This document shows positions 4,130-13,388 of a DNA stretch of 22,416 bases, piece after piece. The DNA is from a virus, in the IMG/VR virus record IMGVR_UViG_3300008108_001548, positions 1 through 22,416 of that record; one strand, 5' to 3'. The translations under genes were made by a program, and so were the position numbers. The notes under the pieces were generated by a model, which saw only the letters and a program-made list of their open reading frames with translations, made no database searches and was not told the DNA's origin. Every line of letters begins with the position of its first letter. Within the stretch, counting starts at the first letter, position 1.

Positions 4130-4158
4130 AATTTAGCAGAAAAAAAGGAGGGTGTCAA
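4130..4158 (-). promoter_or_regulatory. Sigma70-like promoter embedded in a terminator
   Basis: On the minus strand a perfect -35 box TTGACA (4158-4153) is followed by exactly 17 bases and TAAATT (4135-4130), a 4-of-6 match to TATAAT. The -35 box lies in the loop and stem of the terminator at 4140-4163, and the T-tract falls inside the spacer. It reads toward the cluster starting at 4099. Promoters of this type are read by host RNA polymerase, so early expression is inferred. Confidence 0.65.
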
Positions 4159-4163
4159 CCCTC
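4140..4163 (-). terminator. Rho-independent terminator of the 120-aa gene
   Basis: On the minus strand, a 6-bp stem GAGGGT/ACCCTC closes a TGAC loop and is followed by C and seven T residues. The stem begins inside the TGA stop of the 4162-4524 gene, so transcription would end directly after translation. The loop sequence doubles as part of the TTGACA box of the next promoter. Confidence 0.75.
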
Positions 4164-4548: not shown

Positions 4549-4554
4549 ATTATA
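4549..4554 (-). promoter_or_regulatory. TATAAT -10 box upstream of the 120-aa gene
   Basis: A perfect TATAAT on the minus strand lies 6 bases after the stop of the 41-aa gene and 24 bases before the ATG at 4524. I see no good TTGACA at 15-18 bases upstream (CTCCTA at 17). It may need an activator, or be a -10-only phage promoter. Confidence 0.5.
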
Positions 4555-4559
4555 GGGTC

Positions 4560-4685
4560 TCAGAAGTCCGCTAGGAGGTCCTCTGGGACAGTTTCCACAC
4601 TGTCCCACAGTTCTTGCTCTGCCATCTCTCGAATGATAGATTCCCGAGCTTCGTAGTTGTCAAAAATGTCAATGTCTTCGTACAT
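4560..4685 (-). CDS. Acidic 41-aa protein
   Basis: A 41-codon frame starting MYEDIDIFDNYEARESIIRE and ending in a TGA at 4560. It is strongly acidic (about a third Asp/Glu) and helical, with no membrane segment. It starts two bases after the stop of the preceding gene and ends 6 bases before the TATAAT box of the next promoter, so it fills the gap exactly. There is no strong Shine-Dalgarno. Small acidic phage proteins often bind and inhibit host enzymes or mimic DNA; here that is only a possibility. Confidence 0.55.
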   Translation of the reverse strand: MYEDIDIFDNYEARESIIREMAEQELWDSVETVPEDLLADF

Positions 4686-10574: not shown

Positions 10575-11827
10575 GCTGTGGTAGAAATAGCGGGAAGACC
10601 TTTGACAAAGATGGTTTCGACAATAGATTGGAGACGTTTGATGGTAGGAGCACCGTAATTCTTGAATACAGGGACAATGACCTTACCAGAAGGTTTACGA
10701 TACATCTCAAACTTGCCTGGAGTAATCTTACCACAAGCAATGTCATCGGCATCGTCTTTGTTAAGACGAATTACACGACCGACAGTTTGCGCCATCTGAA
10801 TGATATCCAGTTGGCGAAGAAATACGGTATGAGTAAGACCGTGAACGTTGATACCCTCAGACAGAATGCTATAGTGGAAGATCACAAACTTACGGTTAGG
10901 ATCTTTGCCCCAAGCATTGAAAGTGTCAAAGAACTGCTCACGATTGACTTTGTTCTTGTTGACATAAGCACCATACTTGCTGGTGATGTGAAGAACATCA
11001 TAACCACGTTCATGAAACTCACTAAGAATGTTAGTCTTAGAAAGAAGATTGAACATAATCTTGCTGCTAGGAGCGGCGACGAGAATCTTAGCTCCTGGAG
11101 CATCAATGTCATCGATCAAATTAACGAGCATGTCACGGTCATTCTCATAAGAAAATTGACCTTTCTGGCGCTCAATGTCAACCTCATAAGCACTAACCTC
11201 TGGAGGAAGAATAGAACCAGAGTTGACAAGTTCTGGGGCAGGGATGTTGACAAGAATAGGACCGTAAACCATACGGTTGTTCATACCACGACCCATGGGA
11301 GAACGAGTGTGCTTAGGAGTAGCGGTGAAAAAATAATAACGTTTGGCGTCTATATTCAGAACACTTTGAAAGAAGTTACGTTGAACAGCATTGTGTGCTT
11401 CATCATAATAGATAACGTCAATAGGAATGCCAGACTCTACAATACGACCGAGAGAGTTGTAAGTAGTGAACAAGATGACATTAGTATTACAAGTCAGACG
11501 AAGATCGACAAAAGCAGCAATCTGCTCTGGTTTGGTGTTAGACCAGTGATAAGTTTCGCCGCTGTGAACATGACCAGGAACATACTCAACAACACCATTC
11601 AGAAGAGTAATGAACTCCTCACACAGTTGATTGGCGAGCAGAATGCGGGGAGCAACGACAACAATAACTTTATGAATCTGATCCTTAAGATGACGCTCAA
11701 TATCCTTGGCGATGATAATGCTTTTACCAGCACCAGTCGGAGCAATAATCTGACCATGAGTATTATCAAACATAGCAGCGAGAGCACGCTGCTGGCAGGA
11801 ACGAAGAACGACTGTCACAGGGGTCAT
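10571..11827 (-). CDS. SF2 DEAH-box helicase (UvsW/ResIII-like)
   Basis: A 418-aa protein from the ATG at 11827 (MTPVTVVLRSCQQRALAAMF). An upstream in-frame TTG would place the coding start across the TATAAT box. Helicase motifs follow in order: Q-like start LRSCQQRAL, Walker A APTGAGKS (29-36), Ia VVVAPRILLANQL, II DEAH (142-145), III TAT (168-170), V SEGINVHG (323-330) and VI QMAQTVGRVIR (344-354). This is a complete two-RecA-fold ATPase of the UvsW and type III restriction helicase group. UvsW-like enzymes unwind branched DNA during replication and repair. It lacks any visible extra nuclease domain; the HNH protein encoded directly next (ATGA) could serve that role. Confidence 0.92.
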   Translation of the reverse strand: MTPVTVVLRSCQQRALAAMFDNTHGQIIAPTGAGKSIIIAKDIERHLKDQIHKVIVVVAPRILLANQLCEEFITLLNGVVEYVPGHVHSGETYHWSNTKPEQIAAFVDLRLTCNTNVILFTTYNSLGRIVESGIPIDVIYYDEAHNAVQRNFFQSVLNIDAKRYYFFTATPKHTRSPMGRGMNNRMVYGPILVNIPAPELVNSGSILPPEVSAYEVDIERQKGQFSYENDRDMLVNLIDDIDAPGAKILVAAPSSKIMFNLLSKTNILSEFHERGYDVLHITSKYGAYVNKNKVNREQFFDTFNAWGKDPNRKFVIFHYSILSEGINVHGLTHTVFLRQLDIIQMAQTVGRVIRLNKDDADDIACGKITPGKFEMYRKPSGKVIVPVFKNYGAPTIKRLQSIVETIFVKGLPAISTTA

Positions 11828-11843
11828 TGCTGATGATGTGATT

Positions 11844-11849
11844 ATTATA
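11844..11849 (-). promoter_or_regulatory. TATAAT -10 box of the helicase operon
   Basis: A perfect TATAAT on the minus strand lies 16 bases before the helicase ATG and 6 bases after the T-tract of the upstream terminator. No close TTGACA match is found; the best candidate (GCGCCA) lies in the terminator loop at 19-base spacing. The leader would be only about 10 bases, without a clear Shine-Dalgarno. Confidence 0.5.
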
Positions 11850-11855
11850 CAGCAC

Positions 11856-11879
11856 AAAAAAGGGGAGCTGGCGCTCCCC
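11856..11879 (-). terminator. Rho-independent terminator after the ParB-like gene
   Basis: On the minus strand, a perfect 7-bp stem GGGGAGC/GCTCCCC with a GCCA loop is followed directly by six T residues. It starts 8 bases after the TAA of the ParB-like gene. This is a strong intrinsic terminator, so the ParB-like gene and the helicase operon are separate transcripts. Confidence 0.9.
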
Positions 11880-11887
11880 TGTGACAG

Positions 11888-12889
11888 TTATACAGGTGGA
11901 ACCACCGTGTCTTCAACCCCAGTCACTTGGGGCACCCATCCAACAAGAGAGATAAACTCAAAGTCTTCTCCATTGTTATGAGCTTCTTTGATCTTAGGAG
12001 CAAGAAGATTCAATGCTTTATTCATCTTCCGAACAGATTTTAGAGCTGCTTCCCTCTCAGGATCTGCCTGCTCAGCATTGAAACCGTTAAGATAACCAGC
12101 AACAGGCTTGACAACAGAAGTGTCAGCATATGTTTCAAGAACTTCCTTAAGAGTACGAGCAAGATAAGTATCGTTATTCTTTGCCGACCAACTAAGGAAC
12201 AGCGGGATTTCTTGATCGCTGGAAGTATCAGATGTCACATGTTCTTGCCACCACTTTTTAGCACTCTTGGCATCAAATGGGGACATGGTTTCTTTACAGA
12301 GCTTACTGCCAATTACCGAGTTGACAATCTCTTTTACCTTAGCATCAGACCAAGGATGATCAAATCGACTGAACCAAGCAATTCCCTCTTGCTGGGTTGT
12401 CTTGTTGATACGATCGAAATACTTACGAAGACGCTTCTTGGCATCATCGACAGTCAACGGCTTAGCAACCATATGGTTGTTCATGCCTAGACCGATTTCA
12501 TCAAAAGCGTCATCTTCGACAAAACCTTCCCTAAGTTCAACAACTTGAACACAGATAAACTGGTATCCGAGGTTACGAAGTGCTTCTACTCGGTTATTAC
12601 CATCGTAGACAGTGCCATCGGGGCTAACAATCGGTGGTGTCTTTGTAGTATCAAATCCGCGGGTACTGTAACTTTGCTCTAGAGCATGTACATTCTTCCA
12701 GTCAATACCTTGAGCACGAGCTGGATTGATTTTTAGTCCTGCTTGATTAACATTCTTGAGATCATCGATACAGACAACACGGTATCCTTTGTTGATTGTA
12801 CAAGAAAAAGATTTTAACGGGCAGTTTTCAGTCCACCAAGCAGCATCAGGCATACCACAGGGAGGATCAAATTTTTTGAATTGTGACAT
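11888..12889 (-). CDS. ParB-like (ParB/Srx fold) protein, 333 aa
   Basis: Start at the ATG at 12889 (MSQFKKFDPPCGMPDAAWWT); an in-frame TTG at 12928 is less likely. The ParB-type segment lies at residues about 60-118: IDWKNVHALEQSYSTRGFD, PPIV, DGTVYDGNNRVEALRNLGYQ. The DGNNR box (96-100) corresponds to the 'GeRR/GhrR' nucleotide-binding motif of ParB/sulfiredoxin-fold proteins. The long helical remainder (about 200 residues, with KRLRKYFDRINKTTQQEG and a C-terminal helical repeat) is unrecognised and could bind DNA. ParB-fold phage proteins include nucleases and CTPases; which activity applies here is unknown. It stands alone between a sigma70-like promoter and a strong terminator. Confidence 0.8.
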   Translation of the reverse strand: MSQFKKFDPPCGMPDAAWWTENCPLKSFSCTINKGYRVVCIDDLKNVNQAGLKINPARAQGIDWKNVHALEQSYSTRGFDTTKTPPIVSPDGTVYDGNNRVEALRNLGYQFICVQVVELREGFVEDDAFDEIGLGMNNHMVAKPLTVDDAKKRLRKYFDRINKTTQQEGIAWFSRFDHPWSDAKVKEIVNSVIGSKLCKETMSPFDAKSAKKWWQEHVTSDTSSDQEIPLFLSWSAKNNDTYLARTLKEVLETYADTSVVKPVAGYLNGFNAEQADPEREAALKSVRKMNKALNLLAPKIKEAHNNGEDFEFISLVGWVPQVTGVEDTVVPPV

Positions 12890-12950
12890 AGTAAAAACTA
12901 GCAAGTTTGCTTCGGGTTGGCGAACCAATCAGGTTCTCACCAACAAACGT

Positions 12951-12979
12951 AATATAACACGAAAAAGGGGGTCTGTCAA
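12951..12979 (-). promoter_or_regulatory. Near-consensus sigma70 promoter inside a terminator
   Basis: On the minus strand TTGACA (12979-12974) is a perfect -35 box, followed by exactly 17 bases and TATATT (12956-12951), 5 of 6 to consensus. It would give a leader of about 55 bases before the ParB-like ATG at 12889. The -35 box sits in the loop and stem edge of the terminator at 12962-12984. Confidence 0.8.
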
Positions 12980-12984
12980 CCCCC
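12962..12984 (-). terminator. Rho-independent terminator ending the structural block
   Basis: On the minus strand, a 6-bp stem AGGGGG-type arm (GGGGGT/ACCCCC) closes a 6-base loop TGACAG and is followed by five T residues. It lies 12 bases after the stop of the 130-aa gene. Its loop is part of the TTGACA box of the following promoter. Confidence 0.8.
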
Positions 12985-12995
12985 TGTGCCACTTT

Positions 12996-13388
12996 TCAAA
13001 CTGCCTCTGGTCTCGCTTCCCTCAGACCGTTATGCCCATCATTTCCCCTAACATATAATCCGTTGGAGTAAATGACATATTGAATGAAGTAATCAGGATC
13101 GCCATCCCTGCTTCCAGGGAAGTTATCTCTACAGAACTCCCAAGCATCTTCTTCATTAGTAAATTCAACAAAAATAAATTCATTATATAATAGTTTATCA
13201 AAAATATCTGGAGATTCCGATTGCATATTCATATAATATGCCGAATAGATGGCATTTGCTTTAGTAGCATCATCAACACCATCAGGACCAGTAGTTCTGA
13301 TTAAAACCATCGTTGATTGTGTTGCTGCTGTATAATGAATCATCCAGTCTTTGAAATTTCTGGTCGTTACATATCCTGGGGTTGCCAT
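12996..13388 (-). CDS. Hypothetical protein, 130 aa, last gene of the structural block
   Basis: A 130-aa protein starting MATPGYVTTRNFKDWMIHYT with a strong Shine-Dalgarno (AGGAG, 6 bases upstream). It is a soluble alpha/beta protein, with STMVLIRTTGPDGVDDATKA, an aromatic stretch IYSAYYMNMQS, FIFVEFTNEEDAWEFCRDNF and YFIQYVIYSNGLYVRGND. No known domain is recognised. It begins one base after the chaperone gene ends, so it is probably co-expressed with tail-fibre genes and may be a small virion or assembly protein. The terminator follows directly. Confidence 0.75.
   Translation of the reverse strand: MATPGYVTTRNFKDWMIHYTAATQSTMVLIRTTGPDGVDDATKANAIYSAYYMNMQSESPDIFDKLLYNEFIFVEFTNEEDAWEFCRDNFPGSRDGDPDYFIQYVIYSNGLYVRGNDGHNGLREARPEAV

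Follow-up and report, generated by a model that had tools for sequence, protein, structure and literature searches.

The locus and its elements

The window, i.e., the whole stretch of 22,416 nucleotides analysed here, carries genes for a tail chaperone, a short tail fibre, a SUEL-lectin virion protein, the UvsW helicase, Dam and a 2OG oxygenase. Its source is a T4-like cyanophage, a marine cyanobacterial virus. On the minus strand, the last gene of the tail/structural block is followed by a gene of 333 aa and then by the uvsW helicase gene. The features around the boundary between the block and the 333-aa gene are listed below.

12996–13388, minus strand: upstream gene, 130 aa, phrog_4883, last gene of the tail block
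12985–13008, minus strand: 24-bp palindrome AGAGGCAGTT-TGAA-AAGTGGCACA, putative regulator-binding site, centre at about -52.5 to -53
12966–12985, minus strand: predicted terminator hairpin AGGGGGTT-GACA-GACCCCCT, 8 bp, fold -13.6 kcal/mol
12974–12979, minus strand: -35 box TTGACA, spanning the loop and the upper part of the stem (sequence), constant while the stems vary
12962–12966, minus strand: T-run of the terminator (T5), inside the promoter spacer (sequence)
12951–12959, minus strand: extended -10 box TGT-TATATT (TGTTATATT), 17 bp from the -35 box, a spacing at which relatives show a peak
12944, minus strand: predicted transcription start, placed by sequence only, from the -10 box
12890–12944, minus strand: predicted 5' leader, beginning directly with a hairpin (-16.7 kcal/mol, z -2.35)
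11888–12889, minus strand: downstream gene, 333 aa, phrog_27790, weak ParB-like signal

The composite element is a stretch of 35 letters, AGGGGGTTGACAGACCCCCTTTTTCGTGTTATATT, read from the window sequence at 12985-12951 of the minus strand. From 5' to 3' it consists of A12985, GGGGG (12984-12980), TTGACA (12979-12974), G, ACCCCC (12972-12967) and TTTTT (12966-12962), after which the letters continue with CG, TGT (12959-12957) and TATATT (12956-12951). The preliminary description of this DNA had claimed a hairpin with a T-run at the end of the structural block, with TTGACA in the loop and stem edge, 17 bp before TATATT. The sequence reads as claimed, and the element lies 10 bp past the stop of the 130-aa gene, the last of the block. 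Our predicted +1 (about 12944) and predicted RNA 3' end (about 12958-12961) also agree with the positions given there. That description was correct in the anatomy; it left the strand unstated and missed the palindrome at 13008-12985, a further composite at 11880 and the PeSL cassettes already known from phages (see below).

The promoter at 12979-12951 agrees with a primary-sigma promoter in 11 of 12 box letters, in the 17-bp spacer and in the TG before the -10 box. A promoter scan of the window found 62 promoter-like sites when 62.0 were expected by chance, and this site was the best of them. Such a generic scan is therefore uninformative alone, and the case rests on comparison. The terminator has the form of an intrinsic one: a GC-rich hairpin with a T-run immediately 3' on the transcript side. 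Since the T-run lies on one side of the hairpin only, the direction of the terminator is the minus strand only. Termination may be partial, because the T-run is short (T5, then CG). A search of the window against Rfam gave no match. A particularly stable type of tetraloop could have explained TTGACA; we rejected this, as the loop is neither UUCG nor GNRA. Cyanophage terminators otherwise favour the CTTCGG loop. The T4 late-promoter motif TATAAATA has no exact copy in the window, and near copies are not in excess.

The 333-aa gene starts about 55 nt past the predicted transcription start. The ParB-like match of its product is weak and sub-threshold. Relatives of the protein are present in S-MS29 (44% identity) and S-CAM3 (29%), with a weak one in P-SSM2; among viral contigs, relatives were sought and none was confirmed. 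The weak relative, PSSM2_038 (L094, 40905-42293), has an N-terminal stretch in common with the 333-aa protein. A swap of an unrelated gene into the same slot of P-SSM2 was considered and rejected on account of this relationship. The predicted transcript (12944-12890, minus strand) opens with a stable hairpin, GUUGGUGAGAACC...GGUUCGCCAAC, and the leaders of related loci likewise have inverted repeats at their 5' ends.

Recurrence of the element

The preliminary description had made its reading depend on recurrence in related genomes, and the element does recur. The exact 18-mer GGGGGTTGACAGACCCCC was found in at least 87 viral-contig stretches and was absent from 257 Gb of bacterial and archaeal genome contigs. 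To count independent cases, the downstream flanks were clustered, which gave 35 clusters. A T-run was present in 22 of them and a -10 box in 29; all 22 clusters with a T-run have a -10 box. TATAAT (with up to one mismatch) stands at a spacer of 17 in 16/35 clusters and at any other spacer in 0-3.

In 10 whole cyanophage genomes, TTGACA (with up to one mismatch) lies in the loop of 31 of 256 terminators. Among the 180 permutations of this hexamer, TTGACA ranks first in the cyanophage terminator loops (the mean is 7.8). The terminators of T4 and KVP40 show no excess of such loops (3/114, rank 71). A -10 box stands at the right place after 21 of the 31 cyanophage terminators with a -35 loop vs. 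39 of the 225 others (p = 2e-8). The same link between loop and -10 box is seen in 123 further viral-contig terminators of the form GGGGGT-N6-ACCCCC-T5: after removal of near-duplicates, the -10 box follows in 11/16 cases with a -35 loop vs. 14/78 (p = 1e-4). The loops of 225 of the 256 cyanophage terminators are not TTGACA. Thus, the fusion of promoter and terminator in cyanophages is common and is not the rule.

We also took the promoters as the starting point. The set comprised 121 distinct viral promoters that combine TTGACA and TATAAT with a T5 in the spacer, and in 30 of them a hairpin, which had to contain GC, covers the -35 box. When the 5' arms were swapped between these promoters as a control, the mean was 1.6 hairpins and the maximum 5. 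In a set of 146 perfect extended promoters, for which no T-run was required, only 3 have a hairpin over the -35 box. The flipped-stem pattern ACCCCNTTGACANGGGGTTTT was found in one viral contig only, with a poor -10 box. A match in Staphylococcus phage SA2 is a promoter with a T-run and no hairpin, and was rejected. A match in a Leuconostoc phage has an AT-rich hairpin over the -35 box and is plausible but weak.

Some contigs carry a different arrangement. In five of them (L018, L048, L079, L084, L085), GGGGG-TTGACAG-ACCCCC stands without a T-run and is followed by a hairpin GACCTCC-TATATAATAT-GGAGGTC. This second hairpin has the -10 box in its loop, just upstream of a tRNA-like sequence, so that both promoter boxes are within palindromes.

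Covariation of the stem

The stems of the recurring elements vary widely, e.g., GACCCC/GGGGTC, GGGAGGTC/GACCTCCC, AGGAACCC/GGGTTCCT and GAGAGAGTC/GACTCTC. The substitutions in them are compensatory; TTGACA, the T-run and TATAAT are constant. In an alignment of 16 elements, each of the 7 stem pairs has substitutions at both of its positions, and 94.6% of the cells are paired; the slid controls of this alignment reach at most 68%. Most of the 16 rows had been picked as hairpins, so these values are an illustration, and the fair test is the count of 30/121 that starts from promoters. Constant -35, -10 and T-run together with a covarying stem are what is predicted if selection acts both on a promoter read in DNA and on a hairpin read in RNA. 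A protein operator is unlikely, since an operator would keep the letters of the stem constant.

Homologous positions show the same. Before the relative of the 333-aa gene in S-MS29, there is a fused element with the stem GACCCC/GGGGTC in place of GGGGGT/ACCCCC. Before the weak relative of P-SSM2, the fused element is AGGGGGTTGCACACCCTCT, with a T-run and TACAAT. In S-CAM3, the position before the relative keeps TTGACA-17-CATAAT and a remnant stem of four pairs, and the T-run is lost. This comparison indicates that the promoter is more stable than the terminator, which is superimposed on it.

The upstream palindrome

Directly upstream of the hairpin lies the palindrome AGAGGCAGTTTGAAAAGTGGCACA (13008-12985), which ends 28 nt before the -10 box. 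It has 2 mismatches to the consensus TGTGNCAGTT-N4-AA(C/G)TGNCACA. Several cyanophage genomes show a strong enrichment of the palindrome TGTGNCAGTT-N4-AACTGNCACA; its consensus is not enriched in T4 and KVP40. The window contains three such palindromes (13008-12985, 11903-11880 and 4607-4584) with the -10 box at 28, 30 and 29 nt, respectively, vs. 0.04 expected at up to 3 mismatches on one strand. Among 360 flanks of exact palindromes in viral contigs, TATAAT stands at 29 nt in 66 and at 30 nt in 47, i.e., in 113 of the 360, and at most other distances in about 3. Near terminators, the palindrome is present in 24/63 cases with a -10 box vs. 4/200 cases without one. No -35-like box at all was found in 17 of these 24 terminator-linked palindrome promoters. 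A palindrome 28–30 nt before the -10 box marks a class of cyanophage promoters, mostly without TTGACA.

The position of the centre (about -53) and the symmetry suggest that the palindrome may be the site of a dimeric regulator. In bacterial genomes it is rare, with a weak -10 peak. Exact copies also occur in contigs of Nostocales and Acidobacteria (L603, L606, L625, L632, L643 and others), mostly without a -10 box at the phage distance. The palindrome may be the early regulatory element of cyanophage Syn9, which Doron et al. (2016, ISME J) reportedly described as novel, conserved, cyanophage-specific and located upstream of early genes.

Other elements in the window and in cyanophage genomes

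The window contains two fused elements and one further terminator-promoter composite, as well as a palindrome promoter that has no terminator. Besides the element at 12985-12951, they are as follows.

11844–11903, minus strand: second composite, before uvsW, with a palindrome (11903-11880), a hairpin (11880-11861) and TATAAT (11849-11844)
4549–4607, minus strand: palindrome 4607-4584 with TATAAT at +29, without a terminator
4130–4163, minus strand: third element, fused, GAGGG-TTGACA-CCCTC with a T-run and TAAATT (a weaker -10 box)

The composite before uvsW is also present in P-SSM2 (42316) and S-CAM3 (50459). The listed start of the uvsW reading frame is a TTG upstream of TATAAT 11849-11844, and the ATG at 11827 is the likelier start (window 11857-11827, minus strand). 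Of the 10 cyanophages, 8 have 2–4 fused elements each with the -35 box in the loop, S-PM2 has one and Syn9 none. In four further fused elements (L494, L519, L534, L561), the -10 box stands only about 10 nt before the ATG, which suggests leaderless mRNAs or mRNAs with a very short leader.

Comparison with known systems

Composite cassettes of T4-like phages, called PeSLs (promoter-early stem-loops), are said to have been described by Arbiol et al. (2010) and Comeau et al. (2014). In PMC4503421, where they are cited, they appear as composite promoter-terminator cassettes. Like a PeSL, the cyanophage element is a small intergenic composite of a stem-loop terminator and a strong sigma70-type promoter between co-directional genes, and several copies occur per genome between co-directional, variable genes. 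The PeSLs of RB49, whose sequence we checked, are arranged in tandem: TTGACA stands about 10–20 nt past the stem, after the stem-loop and its T-run. In the cyanophage element, unlike this, the hairpin contains the -35 box and the spacer contains the T-run, so that the two signals are superimposed. The cyanophage form also adds the upstream palindrome.

Terminator and promoter overlap in Vibrio phage KVP40 as well, in the form AGGGTTGAC-TACG-GTCAGCCCT-TTCTTG-TATTAT. However, its -35 box lies in the 5' arm and not in the loop, and its stems are near-identical copies. About ten such near-identical elements were seen in KVP40, including those at 29140, 39856, 54582, 85855, 100190, 109856, 121373 and 139741. 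The cyanophage form is thus a compressed variant of a described phage element, and the PeSL papers may already note the overlap.

Discussion

We consider it highly probable that the element is a composite transcription boundary of a T4-like cyanophage, in which a terminator and a host-type promoter occupy the same DNA. RNA polymerase that has passed through the tail/structural genes would transcribe the G-rich arm, the loop and the C-rich arm, and the RNA hairpin with the U-run would end the structural-block transcript at about 12958-12961. The same double-stranded DNA would serve as a primary-sigma promoter: the loop would be its -35 box, the 3' arm of the hairpin and the T-run would fill the 17-bp spacer, and the holoenzyme would initiate there. 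The 333-aa gene, and probably uvsW too, would be transcribed from about 12944, and the 24-bp palindrome upstream probably binds a regulator of this promoter. We infer from the letters of the genomes compared the activity of the promoter and the terminator, the 5' and 3' ends of the transcripts, their timing and a binder of the palindrome. The idea that one stretch of DNA is both a terminator-type hairpin and a promoter -35 box, already put forward in the preliminary description, is borne out by the anatomy, the loop enrichment, the peak at spacer 17 and the covariation. Selection thus keeps both the terminator and the sigma70-type promoter. Cyanobacteria are not known to have Rho, which gives intrinsic terminators weight in this group.

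If there were only a terminator here, TTGACA and TATATT would be chance matches in AT-rich DNA. The window does contain as many promoter-like sites as shuffled sequence. This reading is nevertheless very improbable: no other permutation of TTGACA is as enriched in the loops of cyanophage terminators, the -10 boxes are found only at spacer 17, and in S-CAM3 the promoter boxes persist though the T-run is gone. The opposite case, a promoter with an inverted repeat that serves as an operator or arose by chance, draws on the fact that repressor operators typically are palindromes over the -35 box. We regard it as improbable, since pairing is kept while the stem letters vary freely between phages, unlike in an operator, the T-run lies 3' of the stem and has no counterpart 5' of it, and hairpins accompany T-runs (30/121 vs. 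3/146).

It is also conceivable that the boundary is a PeSL-like recombination cassette, retained mainly for the exchange of gene modules that repeated copies make possible. Several composites and palindrome promoters lie within 22 kb, the rare 333-aa gene is bracketed by two composites, and an exchange of modules has been proposed for PeSLs (PMC4503421). The copies within one genome differ in the stem and so offer little homology, the density of PeSLs in S-PM2 is too low for this according to Puxty et al., and the slot in P-SSM2 looks syntenic, since the neighbour gene is a weak relative. Such a role seems unlikely to us, and it is compatible with a composite boundary. A coupling device, in which the polymerase would remain bound after termination and pass directly to the overlapping promoter, or would block that promoter while terminating, is a doubtful explanation as well. 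The E. coli polymerase stays on the DNA after intrinsic termination and restarts nearby in vitro (PMC6978380, PMC11347151), and the distance between terminator and promoter is here about zero. Recycling of this kind could let a terminator feed an adjacent promoter; the E. coli signals are separate, whereas those of the phage overlap, and the evidence comes from the E. coli enzyme in vitro. Sequence alone does not distinguish coupling from a plain saving of space.

For the composite boundary that we favour, the overlap may serve to save space, to insulate, to block the promoter during termination or to hand over the polymerase. The preliminary description proposed insulation of an early unit that the host polymerase would transcribe; transient occlusion or hand-over is as possible as insulation, because a terminating polymerase would cover the promoter, and the downstream unit may or may not be early. 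A bolder version is tentative at best: a widespread phage class of promoters in terminator loops, in which the polymerase would be passed straight on, a regulator at the palindrome would set the balance, and late and early units would be coupled and not insulated.

In the element, one signal read in RNA and one read in DNA are superimposed in one short sequence, and both are kept by selection. This makes it a clean natural system to ask if a terminating polymerase is reused on the spot, and it provides a simple search rule for the operon boundaries of cyanophages. We know of no Mot-type middle control in cyanophages. The sharply positioned palindrome points to a putative regulator of cyanophage promoters.
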